Positions 8,114 to 50,653 of a DNA stretch of 64,000 nt are shown here, piece by piece. The stretch spans positions 20,870,684 through 20,934,683 of the forward strand of contig CP092870.1 of the NCBI GenBank assembly GCA_030710605.1, read 5' to 3'. The first letter of the stretch is position 1. Each line of letters opens with the position of its first letter. The DNA is from Cordylochernes scorpioides. Taxonomy: Eukaryota; Arthropoda; Arachnida; Pseudoscorpiones; Chernetidae. The notes beneath the pieces were generated by a model. The model searched no databases and was not told the origin of the DNA. It was given only the letters and a program-made list of their open reading frames with translations. The position numbers and the translations under genes were made by a program.

Positions 8114-8785
8114 CAAAGCCGTAGAGTGTTTGGCTTGACCAGTAGCCCTTTTATATTAGGAGCGGTCATCGAACATCATCTTAAATCAATTATCGATGAA
8201 AACTTCTATGTAGCTCAACGTTTATTGAGATCCTTTTACGTTGACAACTGCCTCACATCGTTGAATAAAGAATCTGACGGTCATATCAAGGAAAAGGAGT
8301 CTGAAATAATTAATAGAGCTGAAATGGAACTTAGTCAGTGGGAAACAACGGAGACGTCCAATCTTCGAGATGGAAATGACACTTTGAATTGCGAGATGAA
8401 CATTGAAATTTCCCCTTCAGTGATAACAAGGAGAGTCAATTTATCTTTGGGGCAAATTTTATTTGATCCCCTCGGGTTTTATTCACCAGTGATAGCGCTT
8501 AAAGTTTTACTACAGAAAAGATGGAATAGCGCAGGTGGATGGGAAGATCCCCTGGGAGATGATATAAGTCAAAAGTCTAAAGATTGGTATGAGAAGATAA
8601 ATCATTTAAAGGACACAAAGATCCCTCGATGGGTTGGGCGGGAAAGAATTGTATTGATAATTTTGATTATATACCCCGTACCACAAAATATGGAGGAAAA
8701 ATTTCCAACCCTGAAGATTGTGAAAGTATTTTTTTTCTCTCTCTCTTTTCTTCTTTTGAACTCCTGTTCAAAAGCGGAGGGAGTA
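8114..8785 (+). pseudogene. BEL-1 RT palm remnant, YVDN
   Basis: The frame starts in the RT with FGLTSSPFILGAVIEHHLK and contains FYVDNCLTS where active RTs have YVDD, so the second Asp of the catalytic pair is lost. LFDPLGFYSPVIALKVL follows, the post-RT BEL signature (FDPLG..SP). Sequence then breaks off into the polypurine tract: RNase H and integrase are missing. This shows the internal deletion joined the end of RT to the 3' leader. Confidence 0.85.
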
Positions 8786-9037
8786 TGTTACGACTACTAG
8801 AGTAGTCAACTTTATTTTTAAGTAAATATATTTGTAACTTAAAAACTAAGAGAAAAAAGTATATAAACTTCTTTTAATGTATATATTGACCGTGTTTTTC
8901 AATAAAAGTTTTGGATGGTTGATAGTCGTCCTTAGAGGCTCTTCCTTGGAGTTTCCGAGCTGGTCAAATAGCTGGACTAAACACTAGGTCGTCTCTCAAG
9001 GTAGAGAGAGAGCAATCTATATTGATAACCCTCAATA
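8786..9037 (+). repeat. BEL-1 3' LTR
   Basis: 252 bp, begins TGTTACGACTACTAGAG after purine tract GCGGAGGGAGTA and ends CCCTCAATA, then target duplicate GTTGT at 9038-9042. Shorter than the 5' LTR mainly through a small deletion near 8903. Confidence 0.85.
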
Positions 9038-33865: not shown

Positions 33866-34732
33866 TGTGATATCTTGGGACCTCTGGGACCAGTGTTACC
33901 TGATGCTAGACGAACCTCGATGTCAACTCTACCGTGCAGTCGTGGTGGAAGGCGACACAGCTGGGCCAAAGGGACCAGTGTTACCTTATGCTAGACGAAC
34001 CTCGATGTCAACTCTACCGTGCAGTCGTGGTGGAAGGCGACACAGCTGGGCCAAAGGTGAAATAAACAAACAGAGATTCCACTAAGAAGCGTCTGACGTC
34101 AAGAAGGAATGGGATGAGGAGAGAGAGAGTTCTTTAGAGCAAGTGTTACCGTTGGGATCCAAGCGCAGACTGCCTAACCTAGGTTCTCGATTTAACACCA
34201 CGACCTTTCTTCTTTCTAATTGGTAGGAAGATGTCACGTGGCCGTTGGCTATTGGTTGACCTACTTAGGTATTGTTTCCTAATTGGTAGGGATATGTCAC
34301 GTGGCCGTTGGCTATTGGTTGACCTACTTAGGTATTGTTTCCTAATTGGTAGGAATATGTCTTTGTCGGGAGATATACCCGGCCTTGCCCAGGAAATACT
34401 GGTCGTTAAACTCGACTTTTATGATTTCCGCGATTCATAAAATTACCTGTAAATTTATTAATAGTGGTGCTGGCTTTAAGCCTCTTTGCTAGGCCTTACT
34501 TCTACTCTCACCTAAGCCTGATTAGTTTTAACCTTAATTTTCTCCTGTTAGTCTCCATTCCTTCTATCTGTACAGTTGCTATACTTTATTAGATTCTTAC
34601 GCGGTACAGATTGATGTTAGTTGAGGCTTTCTATTTGCAGTACATAAGAAGTTATATACAGTCATGGGGTGGAACATGTGGTAGTAGATATCTGGACTAT
34701 TTACAAAAATTCCATGGTCTTAAATCATCACA
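33866..34732. repeat. LTR (left), with internal 85-bp tandem duplication
   Basis: 867 bp. An 85-bp segment starting GGGACCAGTGTTACCTGATG is present twice in tandem here and once in the right LTR, accounting exactly for the length difference. Both LTRs also share a duplicated ATGTCACGTGGCCGTTGGCT unit (about 63 bp). Otherwise about seven differences between the LTRs. Confidence 0.9.
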
Positions 34733-38957: not shown

Positions 38958-39739
38958 TGTGATATCTTGGGACCTCTGGGACCAGTGTTACCTGATGCTA
39001 GACGAACCTCGATGTCAACTCTACCGTGCAGTCGTGGTGGAAGGCGACACAGCTGGGCCAAAGGTGAAATAAACAAACAGAGATTCCACTAAGAAGCGTC
39101 TGACGTCAAGAAGGAATGGGATGAGGAGAGAGAGAGTTCTTTAGAGCAAGTGTTACCGTTGGGATCCAAGCGCAGACTGCCTAACCTAGGTTCTCGATTT
39201 AACACCACGACCTTTCTTCTTTCTAATTGGTAGGAAGATGTCACGTGGCCGTTGGCTATTGGTTGACCTACTTAGGTATTGTTTCCTAATTGGTAGGGAT
39301 ATGTCACGTGGCCGTTGGCTATTGGTTGACCTACTTAGGTATTGTTTCCTAATTGGTAGGAATATGTCTTTGTCGGGAGATATACCCGGCCTTGCCCAGG
39401 AAATACTGGTCGTTAAACTCGACTTTTATGATTTCCGCGATTCATAAAATTGACTGTAAATTTATTAACAGTGGTGCTGGCTTTAAGCCTCTTTGCTAGG
39501 CCTTACTTCTACTCTCACCTAAGCCTGATTAGTTTTAACCTTAATTTTCTCCTGTTAGTCTCCATTCCTTCTATCTGTACAGTTGCTATACTTTATTAGA
39601 TTCTTATGCGGTACAGATTGATGTTAGTTGAGGCTTTCTATTTGCAGTACATAAGAAGTTATATACAGTCATGGGGTGGAACATGTGGTAGTAGATATCT
39701 AGACTATTTACAACAATTCCATGGTCTTAAATAATCACA
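38958..39739. repeat. LTR (right)
   Basis: 782 bp, starts TGTGATATCTTGGG and ends AAATAATCACA. Lacks the 85-bp duplication of the left LTR. Confidence 0.9.
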
Positions 39740-43465: not shown

Positions 43466-44865
43466 CACTGCGTGACGTTGAAAATGGAACACCAAGAAAT
43501 AGTGGCCAGAAAATTAGGCAAATTTCAGGGTAGACGCGCCTAACCGAGTTATGCAAATGATGTAAAATGCGCAGCTCTCGTGCGCACATGGAGTAAGATA
43601 TAAGGGAAGGAACTTGCAGAAAGGACAGTATTCGTGTCGTTATTTCTTCAAGGAAAATCATTGTAGAAATTTTGTTCTTGTGTCAAAAGACACGTGTAAT
43701 AACAGAGAATGCCAGGTCATCGTAAACGGAGGCAGTTCAAGCAGACAGACGCTTTTACGAGGGTCATGGTGATTGGTCCATACGTCAAATCGCAGCTGAT
43801 ACACACCTTGGTGCGTCAACGGTGCACCGACTGTGGAGAAGATGGTTGGAACAAGGAAATGTGGCAATTTATAGGAATGCCGGTGCAACCAGAGTGACGT
43901 CAGCACGTGTGGATCGGCGTATCCTTCGACAAGCAGTGGCGGCCCCACAAGCCACTTGTACCGCCATCCTGCAACATGTGCAAGACACCCTAGATCATTC
44001 CATCTCGACCAGAACCATTTCCCGTCGATTGGTTGCTAATGGCTTGCACTCATGCCGTCCACTAAGAAGACTGCCATTGACCCCACCGAATAGGCGCCAA
44101 CGTTTGGAATGGTGCCGGGCTAGATCGACGTGGATGACGGAATGGCACAGGGTCGTGTTCTCAGATGAGTCGCGTTTCTGCTTGTCCAGTGATAGTCGCC
44201 GTGTACGCGTGTGGCGTCGACGTGGAGAAAGGTCCAATCCGGCAGCAATTGTGGAACGCCCCACCGTGCGACAACGTGGAATCATGGTTTGGGGCGCAAT
44301 CGCGTATGATTCCAGGTCACCTTTACTTCGTATTCAGGGCACTATGACGGCCCAACGATACGTTGATGATGTGCTGCGACCGGTGACACTCCCCTACCTT
44401 CAGGGGGTACCCAATGCCCTTTATCAGCAGGATAACGCCCGACCGCACACTGCTCGCATTAGCCAACAAGCTCCGCAAGATGTACAGATGCTTCCCTGGC
44501 CACCGTACTGTCCTGATCTCTCACCAATCGAGCACGTCTGGGACATCATTGGACGCCGTTTGCATGCCTTGCCACAGCCGCGTTCAGAAGACGAACTGTG
44601 GCAAATGGTTGAGAGGGAATGGAGAGCCATCCCTCAGGACGCCATCCGTACTCTGATTGACTCTCTACCTAGACGTGTTGCTGCGTGCATCGCCGTCCGC
44701 GGTGGTCCTACTTGTTACTATGCCGACGCCGTTCTCGCTCTGTATTATGACTATCATTTTGAAATAAAGATCACCTATTGTTCGTCCCTGTCTCTCTCTG
44801 TCTGCCGAGTTTCATCACTTTCTGGCCACTATTTCTTGGTGTTCCATTTTCAATGTCACGCAGTG
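43466..44865 (+). mobile_element. Tc1-like DNA transposon, nearly full length
   Basis: 1400 bp with 47-bp terminal inverted repeats differing at one base (left CACTGCGTGACGTTGAAAAT; right arm complementary with A in place of G) and TA on both sides (43464-43465, 44866-44867). Contains a transposase ORF broken near its N-terminus. TIR identity indicates a recent arrival. Confidence 0.93.
43709..44865 (+). pseudogene. Tc1-like transposase, N-terminal frameshift
   Basis: ATG at 43709 starts MPGHRKRRQFKQTDAFTR, the usual beginning. After about residue 22 a small deletion shifts the frame, which then continues from 43770 (WSIRQIAADTH) through the ORF at 43822. DNA-binding helix-turn-helix (STVHRLWRRWLEQ) and the catalytic domain follow: VVFSDESRF (first Asp), YQQDNARPHTA (second Asp), and PDLSPIEHVWD (Glu). 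I count 32 residues between the second Asp and Glu versus 34 in classical Tc1. The end ..AVRGGPTCY is typical, but no stop follows there and the frame runs out of the element to 44949. Cut-and-paste transposase at TA sites; inactive as found. Confidence 0.9.
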
Positions 44866-45574
44866 TATATAAATCTTTATATTAATTTTATTCAGGCATT
44901 AGAAAAAAAGCATTTGAAATTTGATCAAGTAAAATTAATCACTGTTTAATATGGAGTTACAATAATTCTTATATTTCCGCTAACAAGCTACTTCCCAGCT
45001 TTAACTTCAGACATTACTGTATATTTTGAATTGATTTCTATAGGTTCAAATTAAACATCACATAAGTTAGTACTTCCCTCGAGTGTGTCGATATTCATTC
45101 AGAAATAGAAACTAATATTACCACACATTGAAAACTAATAAATATGTTCAATTTTGAATGATTATTATATTAACTAAAACAATAATTAGCTCGCCATAAA
45201 TGCGATGAAGAAATATTTAACTTATATGATAAATTGTGCTATGTTTTTACTTAACATACAAAAACCTATTTAAAACCACAATTACGAAACAGCTGAAATT
45301 TAAGCTGGGAGGCAGTTTATAAATAAAAAAACAATTAGCTGAGGAAACTCTTCCCTCTGTATATTATATCTTATATATAATTTTACCGAGGGGATTATAC
45401 TATTAACAAGTTTATAAATAGCTTATGTGGCATCCTTGTATATCACCCAGTGAAAACAAAGGTTTTCTCACTGATTTTAAATACTTTGTAATATATACTG
45501 GTATTCAAAATCATGTGAACAAACACTTTTATTAAAACTCTATTTGTAATATTTAGAAAGTAGGTAACATCTTC
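44866..45574. other. AT-rich spacer
   Basis: No gene recognised. Confidence 0.4.
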
Positions 45575-45989: not shown

Positions 45990-46044
45990 GCGCGCGATGG
46001 AAACGTATTTGGAAGGCCAGGACTTATTAGTAGCGAACCCTCCC
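45990..46044. repeat. Hairpin-family fragment at BEL-2 insertion site
   Basis: GGAAGGCCAGGACTTATTAG followed by TAGCGAACCCTCCC is a diverged half of the hairpin module. BEL-2 begins immediately after CTCCC. Confidence 0.5.
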
Positions 46045-46394
46045 TGAATCGAAATTAGCTTTGGCCTCCTGGCACTAAGGAGGAATCACCGCTAAATTCT
46101 TATTTTAACGCTGGTTTTAATTATATGCTTCTTAACTCAGCGAGCTAACTATAACTCATTTAAACTTGAATAACTGCTATTGTCTCGTCTTACTAACTCT
46201 AATGACTCAACCACGTATACCTTTTATAACTCTCGTCTCACCAACTCTAATGACTCAACCACGTATACTTTAATAACTCAATAACTGTCTTTATTTTCTA
46301 AAATCAAGATTATATACATTTCTAAAATTTACATAATTTAACAATAATTAACAAAAGTAAATTCTAACAATTTTGCATATTTAAGGCTGGAACA
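46045..46394 (-). repeat. BEL-2 3' LTR
   Basis: 350 bp, on the minus strand starts TGTTCCAGCC and ends CGATTCA. Contains an internal imperfect tandem repeat of about 46 bp (AACTCTAATGACTCAACCAC twice). Confidence 0.9.
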
Positions 46395-46728
46395 TACTCC
46401 CCCCGGCCGCTGAACCCTGGTTCAGATTTGAAGGGAAGCGGAGCCAACTTCGTAATAGGTCGCAGGTAGACTCCGGTAGCAGCCCGAACTTGGGCAACTC
46501 GCACCTTCTGGTCTTGAAGAACGACAAATACTTCTCTGCAGTCTCGTGTTCTTTATCAGCTGGTCCCAATATGAACACCAGGTCCAAAGCTACAGCAGTG
46601 TATTGACTATCTCTGTATTTGACATAGGTTGGTAGTTCAGTCCATTGTTTAGACTTCAGGTTCAACTTCCATAAATATTTCGACTCCTTCCCGGCGTGAA
46701 CAAATACAGCTCTTACCCAATCCTGCAC
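46381..46728 (-). pseudogene. End of the kelch-like frame, after a frameshift
   Basis: 115 codons. The first half continues the propeller pattern: AVFVHAGKESKYLWKLNLKS then KQWTELPTY and ALDLVFILG. From about residue 74 it runs out of frame into the BEL integrase tail (46512-46395) and stops at the LTR boundary (MFQP). It overlaps the end of the main ORF by a few codons. The break lies at a run of A's (coding strand) near 46755-46760, so a one-base indel probably split an originally continuous reading frame. Confidence 0.7.
46395..46512 (-). pseudogene. BEL-2 integrase C-terminal tail and polypurine tract
   Basis: In a frame different from the kelch frame the minus strand reads VAQVRAATGVYLRPITKLA and PLPFKSEPGFSGRGEYVP, the usual end of BEL/Pao pol that overlaps the polypurine tract. 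It shows that the original 3' end of the retrotransposon is kept downstream of the foreign segment, and that the foreign reading frame was not joined in phase to it. Confidence 0.85.
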
Positions 46729-47471
46729 AATAGTAAAGTGATTGATATTTTTGGATAGCCCTCTTTCTCACCAAGAATCGGAATAGTTGTATAACACCCC
46801 CAGGAATCTGTTTGAAGTCGGTAGTTATACAGATTACAGAAGTGTTGTTCCCACTGCATTCGAGGGAATAGTAAAAGTTTCTTGTTGGTATAGCAAATCT
46901 GAAGAGAGAGAAATTTCTCTTTCCAAAATATTTTGTCTGATCCAATCAGATGCCAATCTTTGTTTAGGAGATGATAGGAGAAAACCTTGTAAGTAGAGTG
47001 GTCGCGGGTCTCTGCAAGCATAAACAAGAACGCCGATGGTGCAAATGTCATTGCCAGGACCAAGAGGTCAGTTAGGGGCGACTTCCTGCTTTTCACTAAA
47101 ACAGAAGCCCGACCCTCTTTAAGTTTCACTCGGACAATATTGTCGGTGCAAGTTACCTTATTCCCTCTAGAGTGTATTCTCCCTCCTACAAAGTACACCC
47201 TTTTATCGTGAGAGGCATAAACGATAGACTTGGAAATAACTATTGGAGCGAAACCATTCACTTTTCTCCAGATCCATTTTTTGTGAGGGATGTGGTATTG
47301 GTACAATACCGAGCGGACATTCGGGCCATCTAGAGATTCCACATCTTCTATGAGGAGGTAAAGATAAGTTCCGTCGCCGACAAAGACCTTCGGGTAGCTA
47401 CATTGGATGGCTTTGGTAACTTCTGGCCACTCTCCATTTTCCTTCAATATGGCGCGGTGGTAGACTGGTAG
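46512..47471 (-). other. Captured kelch-propeller-like segment
   Basis: About 960 bp occupying the place of RT thumb, RNase H and integrase. Repeating units of roughly 45-55 residues have the kelch spacing of Tyr/Leu and Trp: SVLYQYHIPHKKWIW, then RVYFVGGRIHSRGN (the GG pair), YKVFSYHLLNKDWHLIG, NLYNYRLQTDSWGCY, and YLWKLNLKSKQWTEL. About five blades are visible, resembling the C-terminal half of kelch-like (KLHL) proteins, which present substrates to Cullin-3 ligases in cells. No BTB or BACK domain is present. No intron interrupts it, suggesting capture through mRNA. Boundaries are approximate; the kelch identity is from pattern recognition. Confidence 0.75.
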
Positions 47472-50273
47472 CCCTTCTAAATCCTCGACTTCTTTGACCG
47501 CGGTCTGCCTCTGGAGATTCGCCATTGCCACTGTAGTAGGTGAGAGGAAACCAAGTGGATCGAAAATCCTCGCAATATTGGAGAGAAGATCTCTTTTGGT
47601 AACAACTTCTTCAGGAAGAGTTATATTAACTCTAAACGTATCTTGTACATGATCCCATACAATTCCTAAAATCTTGGATATGGCTCCTTTCTCCAAGTTA
47701 ATTTTCTTCTCTTCGTTCATTTCCTCGACATGAGACACTATCTCGTGGCAATTTGAATTCCACTTTCTTAAGTGAAACCCTCCCTTTTTCATTAAGTCCT
47801 TTAATTGGTCTATTAGTTCTTTGGTTTCAGCAATCGTTTGAGCTCCTGTTAGCAGATCATCGACATAGAAATCATTCAAGGTCACCCTAGAAGCTTCAGG
47901 ATAATCTTGGCCTTCATCTTCTGCTAACTGTTGTAATGTTCTCATTGCCAAAAATGGAGCCGAAGTTGTACCATAGGTAACAGTCAGTAGTCGATAGTCC
48001 ACCACAGGCTCTTCTGGCGATGGTTTCCACAATATCCTCTGATAGTCCGCATCTTCTTGATGATGAGGCATGTAATAGCATCTGCACAATTCTCGCTTCA
48101 CTTCTGCAATTGGGACTCTTTCCATGTGGTTTAAGTGTTCATATTCCTTCATGAATCCCCGGTATTGGTCATATAATTTCACATTCTTACACAATTTTCC
48201 TTCCAACGAAAGGAACCTTCTTAATGCTTTTTCTCTTGATTCACCCAGAAGCGGTCGATGTTGTCTGAATGGCAATTTTACCCAATACCTTCCATGGCTA
48301 TCTCTGCCATGGTTATTCGAAAATAACCTTTCACAATCTTCGTCCTGTGTACAAAGATCCGGTGACGGCACAGATTCAATTTCCCAGAATCTTTTCATTA
48401 CGAATTCTAGTTCTGGTTCAGATTGTAAACTCAGGTTACAGACTTCTGTATTACTCTCCGATGTTCCCATGAGTTTTCCTAGAAGTACCCAACCTAGTCT
48501 TGTATTAATAGCCATTGGCAATCCTTCTCCGAGAGATATAGAGCCATTCAACATAAGTTCAGTGTATATATCTGCTCCCAATATCATATCTATTGGGGCT
48601 TGTATGTAGAACTCTGGGTCTGCCAATTTGAGGTTCTTCAAAGTTGGCCAATTAGGGTCTTTTAACCTGAAGTTCGGAATTTCTGAAGTGAGCACTCCCG
48701 TGACTACTGCCTCCACCGAGAATTCCTCAGAATTATTCAGTGGACAAAATGTCACACTTACTGTCGATGAAGAATGCTGCACTGGTGTGTTTCCAACCCC
48801 TATAATCATCCGATCTGATTTCCTTTGGACAAGTCCCAATCTTTCGCAGCATCCTTTTGTTATCATGGTGACTTGGGAACCGCTGTCCAGTAGGGCTCTG
48901 CAGGTGCATAACTTTCCGAGTCCATTTTTTATCTTGATTCTAGCCGTTGCGAGTAGTACGTGGCTATCATTGCAGTTTGCCTGTTGAGTATTCGTTAAAT
49001 TGATAGCACTTTCATGTTCCTTCGGAGTTGTGTTCTCAACTTGGGCCGAAGCGCCTTCCGTGCTCGGTTTATCATAATGAATCATTGTGTGGTGCTTCCC
49101 CTTGCATACTTTGCATCGTTGGTTCAGCCTACAATTCCATGAGAAATGGCCTTTCCTCAAGCAATTGAAGCACAATTTATGACCTTTTACTACATTTAAT
49201 TTTTCTTTTAAAGGCATTTTGCAAAATAAGCTGCACATGTATAGTGGATGATGCTTAGATTTACATAATATGCAAGTGTCCGATTTCTCAATTAGCATCC
49301 CGTAGCTTTGGCATTTGGGAAATCTCGATCCGGTGGTTTCTTCCCTTTTTGAACATTCCTTGACAGCACAAGACATGCTTCTCGCATGTCTGGAAATGAA
49401 CGCTATGAACTTGTCATAAGAAGGAAGAGTGTTGTCCACTGACAGTTCCCAATCCAACCTTAGATTTTCACTCAACTTCTGCTGGAGGAAGTGCACCAAG
49501 ATCACATCCACTAATTGATTTCTCTTCAATTCCAGCGTTTCTAAGTTTCTTATGGCTTCATTACAAACATCCATGAATTCATGGAGACACTTAGCCGATG
49601 GATTCTTAATTGCCCGGAGAGAAAAGATTTTTGACACCTGGGCATAAGCTAGCTCTCTCGGGTTATCATATCTTGATAACAGTGTACTCCATGCTTGGCC
49701 ATAATTTTCACTTAGTAAAGGGAAACCCCTTATTAATCTGGCCGCTTCGCCTTTTACTGCTGAATTCAAATATTGTAACTTCTGTATATTAGTTAACCCT
49801 GGATGTGCATCGATGGTGGTGAGGAATAGCTCTTTGAAGTTGATCCAATTGCCCATATCTCCATCATATATCGGTAAGTCAAATTGAGGCAATTTTATAT
49901 TTGCCTGAGAGCCATTTGGCTTTATGTCCGCCAGTTTGTCTTTGAGTTTTCTCTCATTTTCTATTTTTACCCTCAAGCTTCCAATCTTGTTCATTGAACC
50001 ATCATATGCCTCACTTTCTTTATCTATATCAACTTCATCCAAAGAAAACAGCTCGTCGTAGAGTTTCTCAATTTTCTCTTTGATCTCCTTTAATTCTTCA
50101 CCCATTATTTCTAAGCGTATTGTTTCACCTGCCTTAATAATTGAATCCACACTTTCAATAAATCCATCAATTCTCCTTATCTGACAACTTAACTTTCTTT
50201 GGAGGATCCTTTCGTCTCGAGACATTTGCAATTGTATTCTCGCTGAGTTTTTGCTAAATTTCTTCTGTTTCAA
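46713..50273 (-). CDS. BEL-2 gag-protease-deltaRT-kelch fusion ORF, 1186 codons
   Basis: Uninterrupted frame. Residues 1-135: coiled-coil-like N-terminus (start could also be Met17). About 135-300: BEL gag core (LPQFDLPIYDGDMGNWINF). About 335-405: zinc-binding repeats (CILCKSKHHPLYMC, CFNCLRKGHFSWNC, CKVCKGKHH). About 455: protease LLDSGSQVTMI with intact DSG, then DMILGADIYTELM and RLGWVLLGK. RT: YYMPHH runs straight into YQRILW, so the segment with the first catalytic Asp is deleted in frame; later VTYGTTSAPF and FYVDDLL are intact; IFDPLGFLSPTTVAM follows. From about residue 920-935 onward kelch-like sequence. Starts right after the primer-binding site. Probably nucleic-acid binding gag plus protease can be made, but not RT or integrase. 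Confidence 0.88.
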   Translation of the reverse strand: MKQKKFSKNSARIQLQMSRDERILQRKLSCQIRRIDGFIESVDSIIKAGETIRLEIMGEELKEIKEKIEKLYDELFSLDEVDIDKESEAYDGSMNKIGSLRVKIENERKLKDKLADIKPNGSQANIKLPQFDLPIYDGDMGNWINFKELFLTTIDAHPGLTNIQKLQYLNSAVKGEAARLIRGFPLLSENYGQAWSTLLSRYDNPRELAYAQVSKIFSLRAIKNPSAKCLHEFMDVCNEAIRNLETLELKRNQLVDVILVHFLQQKLSENLRLDWELSVDNTLPSYDKFIAFISRHARSMSCAVKECSKREETTGSRFPKCQSYGMLIEKSDTCILCKSKHHPLYMCSLFCKMPLKEKLNVVKGHKLCFNCLRKGHFSWNCRLNQRCKVCKGKHHTMIHYDKPSTEGASAQVENTTPKEHESAINLTNTQQANCNDSHVLLATARIKIKNGLGKLCTCRALLDSGSQVTMITKGCCERLGLVQRKSDRMIIGVGNTPVQHSSSTVSVTFCPLNNSEEFSVEAVVTGVLTSEIPNFRLKDPNWPTLKNLKLADPEFYIQAPIDMILGADIYTELMLNGSISLGEGLPMAINTRLGWVLLGKLMGTSESNTEVCNLSLQSEPELEFVMKRFWEIESVPSPDLCTQDEDCERLFSNNHGRDSHGRYWVKLPFRQHRPLLGESREKALRRFLSLEGKLCKNVKLYDQYRGFMKEYEHLNHMERVPIAEVKRELCRCYYMPHHQEDADYQRILWKPSPEEPVVDYRLLTVTYGTTSAPFLAMRTLQQLAEDEGQDYPEASRVTLNDFYVDDLLTGAQTIAETKELIDQLKDLMKKGGFHLRKWNSNCHEIVSHVEEMNEEKKINLEKGAISKILGIVWDHVQDTFRVNITLPEEVVTKRDLLSNIARIFDPLGFLSPTTVAMANLQRQTAVKEVEDLEGLPVYHRAILKENGEWPEVTKAIQCSYPKVFVGDGTYLYLLIEDVESLDGPNVRSVLYQYHIPHKKWIWRKVNGFAPIVISKSIVYASHDKRVYFVGGRIHSRGNKVTCTDNIVRVKLKEGRASVLVKSRKSPLTDLLVLAMTFAPSAFLFMLAETRDHSTYKVFSYHLLNKDWHLIGSDKIFWKEKFLSLQICYTNKKLLLFPRMQWEQHFCNLYNYRLQTDSWGCYTTIPILGEKEGYPKISITLLLCRIG

Positions 50274-50283
50274 ATCCTAATCA

Positions 50284-50299
50284 GGCTCTTGAGGGACCA
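50284..50299 (-). promoter_or_regulatory. BEL-2 primer-binding site
   Basis: TGGTCCCTCAAGAGCC immediately follows the 5' LTR end CGATTCA. It resembles the TGGTCCTTCGAGCC-type site common in BEL/Pao elements (recalled). Confidence 0.65.
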
Positions 50300-50648
50300 T
50301 GAATCGAATTGGCTTTGGCCTCCTGGCACTAAGGAGGAATCACCGCTAAATTCTTATTTTAACGCTGGTTTTAATTATATGCTTCTTAACTCAGCGAGCT
50401 AACTATAACTCATTTAAACTTGAATAACTGCTATTGTCTCGTCTTACTAACTCTAATGACTCAACCACGTATACCTTTTATAACTCTCGTCTCACCAACT
50501 CTAATGACTCAACCACGTATACTTTAATAACTCAATAACTGTCTTTATTTTCTAAAATCAAGATTATATACATTTCTAAAATTTACATAATTTAACAATA
50601 ATTAACAAAAGTAAATTCTAACAATTTTGCATATTTAAGGCTGGAACA
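50300..50648 (-). repeat. BEL-2 5' LTR
   Basis: 349 bp, same sequence as 46045-46394 except for GAATTGG versus GAAATTAG near one end. Confidence 0.92.
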
Positions 50649-50653
50649 CTCCC

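Follow-up and report, generated by a model that had tools for sequence, protein, structure and literature searches.

Transduction of host genes is classic in retroviruses and has been documented in a few LTR elements. In acute transforming retroviruses, which carry gag-onc fusions, host coding sequence replaces replication functions and a helper is needed. Bs1 of maize is a plant element and lies outside BEL/Pao. It is presented as an LTR element with captured cellular gene fragments, and the title under which it is cited refers to a hybrid open frame (PMC5408686). The same source describes how, in metazoans, LTR elements mediate retroposition (Tan et al., 2016): microsimilarity guides template switches between the RNA of the element and a host mRNA. 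The sections cited of two other papers describe bdelloid LTR elements with extra ORFs and orchid Ty3 elements with an AlkB domain (PMC5408684, PMC9289625). No capture of a kelch sequence by a BEL/Pao element was among the papers listed in searches of the literature.

Here, a BEL/Pao element from the pseudoscorpion Cordylochernes scorpioides is described in which ∼1 kb of a host KLHDC10-like gene stands in place of most of the RNase H and nearly all of the integrase. The host sequence was likely acquired by template switching, and the resulting chimera is probably mobilized by intact relatives; a probability of roughly 0.9 is assigned to this reading.

Architecture of the element

The window, C8:20870684-20934683, is the whole stretch of 64,000 nucleotides that was analyzed, and the genome searched comprises 2.62 Gb in 24 contigs. 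The element occupies 46045-50648 of the window and is read from the minus strand. Its features, in the order of the element strand, are listed below.

50649..50653, minus strand: target-site duplication on the 5′ side, GGGAG on the element strand (from the sequence)
50300..50648, minus strand: 5′ LTR, which starts TGTTCC
50282..50299, minus strand: likely region of the primer-binding site, immediately following the 5′ LTR, TGGTCCCTC..., its role assigned from position
46713..50273, minus strand: open frame of 1186 codons, gag-protease-(core-deleted RT)-kelch, shortened in this copy by a frame break
49440..49868, minus strand: gag, DUF1759 (PF03564), profile match at E 8.9e-34
48576..48923, minus strand: aspartyl protease (PF13650), profile match at E 1.7e-6
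48056..48063, minus strand: join of the in-frame 210-bp RT-core deletion, from comparison with relatives, in 16 of 30 copies
47527..47600, minus strand: start of the Peptidase_A17 / RNase H region, as far as the 5′ capture junction
47527-47532, minus strand: microhomology AGTGGC at the 5′ junction, common to donor and BEL
46514..47526, minus strand: captured host kelch segment of 1013 bp, 98.2% identical to the donor at C8:23006126-23007139
46401..46513, minus strand: retained BEL integrase tail (DUF5641), in a different frame from the main ORF
46509-46513, minus strand: microhomology GACCA at the 3′ junction, common to donor and BEL
46395..46410, minus strand: likely polypurine tract before the 3′ LTR, from the sequence, its role likewise assigned
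46045..46394, minus strand: 3′ LTR, from LTR comparison
46040..46044, minus strand: target-site duplication on the 3′ side, GGGAG (from the sequence)

As had been reported in a first-pass annotation of this DNA, the LTRs are nearly identical (99.4% over 348 columns, with one mismatch and one gap), and a 5-bp duplication, GGGAG or CTCCC on the plus strand, lies outside both of them. Paired LTRs with a short target duplication, the DUF1759 gag, the aspartyl protease and the start of A17 after the RT are as found in BEL/Pao elements. Zinc-knuckle-like cysteine motifs and the later RT motifs can be recognized by eye in the ORF, and no envelope was seen in the window copy. The RNase H and integrase core, though present in relatives, is replaced by kelch, and the element is therefore a BEL derivative and not a complete BEL. 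In particular, the Peptidase_A17 match covers only positions 1-38 of 162 (E 2.7e-7), with its end already inside the insert, and downstream of the A17 start the best profile matches in the ORF are kelch propellers (E 0.0022 and 0.0042).

The 1186-codon ORF said to run from gag through RT into kelch is indeed present at 46713-50273, but it ends before the end of the propeller because the kelch frame is broken in the window copy. The RT credited to this ORF keeps its later motifs but has lost part of its core, which the first reading did not notice: 210 bp (70 codons) are missing in frame at 48056-48063, and in relatives an 8-bp repeat stands at both edges of this stretch. The RT core is absent from 16 of the 30 copies studied, the window's included, and kept in the other 14. 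The integrase tail that had been noted in another frame near the polypurine tract corresponds to DUF5641; the profile match (E 0.0005, 20.7 bits) is slightly below the cut-off of 23.1, and the DNA of the tail is 97.7%–99.2% identical to six BEL loci.

Several other elements share the window. Two direct repeats, at 33971-34732 and 38978-39739, are 98.95% identical and lie on either side of ORFs of the minus strand, one of which matches aspartyl protease weakly; together they are probably another young LTR element. A Tc1/mariner-type transposase ORF of 375 codons lies at 43822-44949, and a second, fragmentary BEL pol with a Peptidase_A17 start at 8126-8800. At 909-1952, RT and GIY-YIG matches, both under the Pfam cut-off, occur in one ORF, an arrangement like that of Penelope-like elements.

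Junctions with integrase-bearing relatives

BEL relatives were found in the same genome with an RNase H piece that is missing from the chimera. Relatives with this piece are present at a minimum of 150 places (150 of 150 scored places match, the best 150 of 7251 candidates), with open frames of up to 1737 codons. To the left, all eight relatives examined match the window element at 98.2%–99.2% identity as far as 47527; to the right, all six examined are 97.7%–99.2% identical from 46513 or 46512 onward; between the two junctions, no match to the window element was observed in these eight and six loci. Since the relatives match up to both junctions with nothing between, the insert is exactly 46514-47526. 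The segment originally put at about 960 bp is thus 1013 bp long, and its kelch character stands.

One relative was scanned over the stretch that the chimera lacks, and the rest of A17 (2.7e-40), an integrase zinc-binding domain (1.2e-8) and the rve core (1.8e-5) were found there. By sequence comparison, the insert replaces most of the RNase H and integrase and spares the DUF5641 tail. The LTRs of intact relatives are 91.5%–94.6% similar to those of the chimera. Elsewhere, three BEL matches at C6:107439792, 107443905 and 107448018 are spaced exactly 4113 bp apart, like a tandem array; two of the units (L067 and L068) have an internal deletion that extends into the DUF5641 tail.

The host donor and the boundaries of capture

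The genome was searched with a kelch profile, which gave 139 PF24681 matches, and 72 loci, some of them from one gene, were then compared. The closest of these 72 is a host gene at C8:23006126-23007139 (∼23.006 Mb), on the same chromosome as the window element and among the weaker profile matches, outside the top 30 of the 139. This putative donor covers the full insert with 98.2% identity over 1014 columns (17 mismatches and one gap), and the cargo of the element can be traced to an identifiable host gene.

The donor frame is uninterrupted over 367 codons from its ATG, with AATAAA ∼60 nt after the stop. The captured part consists of the single nucleotide preceding the ATG and 337 complete codons; the last 30 codons are left out, and the donor frame extends beyond the position of the 3′ junction. 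A host paralog on C22 is 24% identical to the donor protein over 226 aa (E 1e-9 in a small set), in an alignment that also covers the final 30 residues, weakly. In the 1,701 bp examined at the donor, no match to either half of the BEL element was found. The extension of the donor frame and of its paralogy past the 3′ junction, together with the lack of BEL flanks, indicates that the sequence passed from host to element. Donor and BEL have 6 bp in common at the 5′ junction (AGTGGC) and 5 bp at the 3′ junction (GACCA); random joins of the same two sequences share ≥6 bp in 0.2% and ≥5 bp in 0.6% of trials.

A host kelch parent with introns had been anticipated. The parent was found, but its coding region has no introns. 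Intron loss cannot serve as evidence for an RNA route, since the donor coding region is itself uninterrupted, and the earlier argument from an "intronless" capture is void.

No annotated donor protein was present among the database matches listed (best 5 of 449; best 26 of 1949), all of which are from C. scorpioides, and the protein-database matches inspected from this species are gene models of the chimera. The donor gene has no protein record among these listed matches despite its intact 367-codon frame. A viral source of the kelch sequence was considered and rejected; there was one pattern match, and no relative was found in viral contigs.

Identity of the kelch cargo

The proposed kelch similarity was borne out. 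A copy with an unbroken frame matched PF24681 at 1.4e-6 and PF24981 at 2.7e-5, both under the Pfam curated cut-off of 50 bits, and four shuffles of the kelch segment gave no match to a kelch family. Against solved structures, KLHDC10 was the only match at E ≤ 10 for the unbroken copy (1.5e-4) and again for the donor (1.7e-5). A profile built from the cassette and the C22 paralog matched KLHDC10 at 5.7e-7, with a thiocyanate-forming protein next at 0.0084. The window's own frame-broken fragment showed no kelch match in the PDB. The cargo is predicted from these matches to be a KLHDC10-like kelch propeller, with about six blades by reading of the sequence. Another host kelch locus taken for comparison (L048) has a strong KLHL/KEAP1-type match, unlike the cassette. 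An AlphaFold2 model of the window kelch fragment alone, made without relatives, was of low confidence (pLDDT 42), and a fold search with it (Foldseek) gave no match at E ≤ 0.001. Many beta-propellers can be read in the resulting list, with KLHDC10 at rank 5, but the model is weak and the list is given no weight as evidence.

The degron-binding residues of KLHDC10 include A155, F176 and Y208, as given in the cited part of PMC11568203. In the alignment from the KLHDC10 structure match, as read by eye and with the other pocket residues outside it, these three correspond to S, R and V in the cassette. Because they are not conserved, it is doubtful that the cargo would bind the degrons of KLHDC10. 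A BC-box (Elongin B/C) had no clear match by eye in the donor tail; the last 30 donor codons are also omitted from the capture. The idea that capture had removed a BC-box was dropped, the donor being without a clear one.

A mobile, multicopy family

Full-length matches to the kelch segment number at least 40 in the genome (best 40 of 197 candidates scored). Thirty copies (L001–L030), including that of the window, were chosen by kelch similarity and studied. The 5′ junction and the 3′ junction, to within three substitutions, and the start of the 3′ LTR were found in every one of these copies, so the chimera occupies no fewer than 30 sites. Of the 20 copies tested, 19 are bounded exactly at their LTR ends by a perfect duplication of 5 bp, and all 19 duplications are different, which shows that the chimera itself was retrotransposed, as the duplication at the window copy had first suggested. 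The remaining copy (L005) has no duplication, and its placed 3′ LTR end differs from the others. In 17 of the 20, the copy's own LTR pair is identical over the aligned part (75–231 bp). Among the 29 copies other than the window's, 27 have an open RT-kelch frame, which runs to a stop at the LTR start or inside the LTR; the other two contain a stop.

Selection on the cassette and recombination of backbones

Fifteen differences from the donor, in 1002 nt, are common to all 29 other copies (10 nonsynonymous and five synonymous); with each site scored alone, P is 0.31 against no constraint. Variants among the copies comprise 23 nonsynonymous and nine synonymous changes, close to the 75% nonsynonymous reckoned from codon counts. 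The kelch changes look neutral, and we infer that the cargo is at present mainly a passenger. Because these changes fit no constraint, youth is the best explanation for the open frames.

Over the 500 columns to the left of the 5′ junction, nucleotide diversity is 0.018; within the insert it is 0.0029 (a value biased down by the choice of copies by kelch similarity), and after the insert 0.0056. The backbone adjoining the insert is ∼six times more variable than the near-uniform kelch cassette. The shuffling of backbone markers is independent of that choice: with four common non-A/G markers and the RT deletion, all four combinations occur in nine of ten pairs, and of 34 backbone polymorphisms, 18 are found segregating in eight relatives as well. 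As the non-A/G markers have recombined and backbone polymorphisms are common to relatives, the cassette rides on many backbones, which supports its recombination onto many BEL backbones after capture. A four-gamete count over all common sites (78 of 91 pairs) was set aside because most of these sites are A/G and could recur by editing; recombination rests on the non-A/G markers.

On the element strand, the RT block of the L001–L030 backbone has 50 A/G and 14 C/T polymorphisms. The bias is opposite in the kelch insert, with six A/G and 12 C/T, and the eight relatives have 20 A/G and 11 C/T. The A/G bias might reflect RNA editing or cDNA deamination that recurs in the BEL pool.

Discussion

The structure of the chimera suggests how it may have arisen. 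An intact BEL RNA and the donor mRNA would have been packaged together, and reverse transcriptase, moving 3′ to 5′, would have left BEL for the donor at GACCA and returned at AGTGGC; such co-packaging and template switching is the capture route that we infer. The RNase H and integrase would have been lost in this step, and the LTRs, primer site, gag, protease, RT, integrase tail and polypurine tract retained. The product, whose RT and propeller lie in one open frame in 27 of the 29 other copies, has integrated repeatedly, with 5-bp duplications of its own. Because the integrase is absent, as is the RT core from 16 of 30 copies, the chimera would be moved by proteins of the abundant intact BEL copies. 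Mobilization in trans by these coexisting relatives is plausible given LTRs that are 91.5%–94.6% similar. The near-uniform cassette would then have recombined onto many backbones, as in copy-choice between co-packaged RNAs, a step that the shuffled markers support, and the kelch sequence, with changes that look neutral, may now be mainly carried along.

That a divergent BEL group has an unusual RNase H/integrase here, kelch-like in appearance only, was a possibility raised at the outset, and it might account for the weak kelch scores of the window copy and for the broken fragment finding no kelch protein in the PDB. Relatives that are ∼98%–99% identical on both sides, however, carry ordinary BEL sequence at this place and diverge abruptly from the segment at both junctions. 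The insert is also 98.2% identical to a host gene that is not BEL, and KLHDC10 is the one solved structure matched by the unbroken copy and by the donor. Junctions and donor together refute this explanation, which has practically no chance of being correct. Nor is there any realistic prospect that the chimera is an assembly join or a single aberrant insertion: no support for either was found, both junctions recur in 30 of 30 copies, and different 5-bp duplications accompany 19 of the 20 tested.

Entry of the host segment at the DNA level, by microhomology-mediated repair or gene conversion and not by template switching, is a stronger contender, although an unlikely one. Since the donor is uninterrupted in genomic DNA, DNA and mRNA donors would yield the same insert, and short microhomology fits DNA repair as well. 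On the other side, the insert begins 1 nt before the donor ATG, it lies in the sense of the element RNA and replaces an internal BEL stretch, and the backbones have recombined as expected of co-packaged RNAs; each of these points favors an RNA route, none of them decisively. It is marginally less improbable, and still improbable, that the kelch sequence has been kept as useful to the element, for instance as a means to block or redirect an adaptor of a host ubiquitin ligase. An RT-kelch frame open in 27 of 29 other copies, the preservation of frame by both the capture and the 70-codon RT deletion, and the many copies are all in keeping with such a role. Against it stand the 10:5 ratio of nonsynonymous to synonymous changes from donor to cassette (P 0.31 against no constraint), the 23:9 ratio among copies, which is expected under no constraint, and the three KLHDC10 degron-pocket residues (in the cited part of PMC11568203) unmatched in the alignment. 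Speculatively, and with a similarly small chance, the propeller might be an exchangeable BEL module, captured once and spread by copy-choice, whose expression as a gag-protease-RT-kelch fusion would enable an element without integrase to disturb host protein quality control and outcompete its helpers.

Taken as a host gene captured by template switching and mobilized in trans, the chimera would extend gene capture to BEL/Pao, with a kelch cargo. The donor, possible helpers and the chimera were found in one genome with exact junctions; to our knowledge, all three are rarely present together and nearly unchanged. Because they share a genome with exact junctions, the capture route, helper dependence and cassette exchange are directly testable.

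KLHDC10 (cryo-EM chain 9d8p_A) is the nearest described structure, since no other solved structure matched the cassette or the donor at E ≤ 10; the chimera differs from it in the three degron-pocket residues covered by the alignment, and no BC-box was seen by eye in the donor tail. Analogous to the acute transforming retroviruses, the chimera has host sequence fused to a polyprotein in place of replication functions and would need a helper. In contrast to them, it forms an arachnid retrotransposon family with a non-oncogene cargo, and no envelope was seen in the window copy. Bs1, as described in the cited source, is likewise an LTR element that has taken up host gene sequence, whereas in the chimera a single kelch coding region, near-complete, is set precisely at RNase H/integrase borders; its donor and intact relatives are in the genome that carries it, and there are at least 30 copies of it. 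The bdelloid and orchid elements, in the sections cited, are also LTR elements that have gained new protein domains. They add an ORF, whereas the cargo of the chimera replaces the integrase and its probable donor gene is identified. With LTR-mediated retroposition, as that process is summarized in PMC5408686, the chimera has in common microsimilarity at the switch points, switching being the presumed route here; that process yields retrocopies, whereas the chimera has kept both LTRs and likely cis signals and forms a multicopy mobile family.
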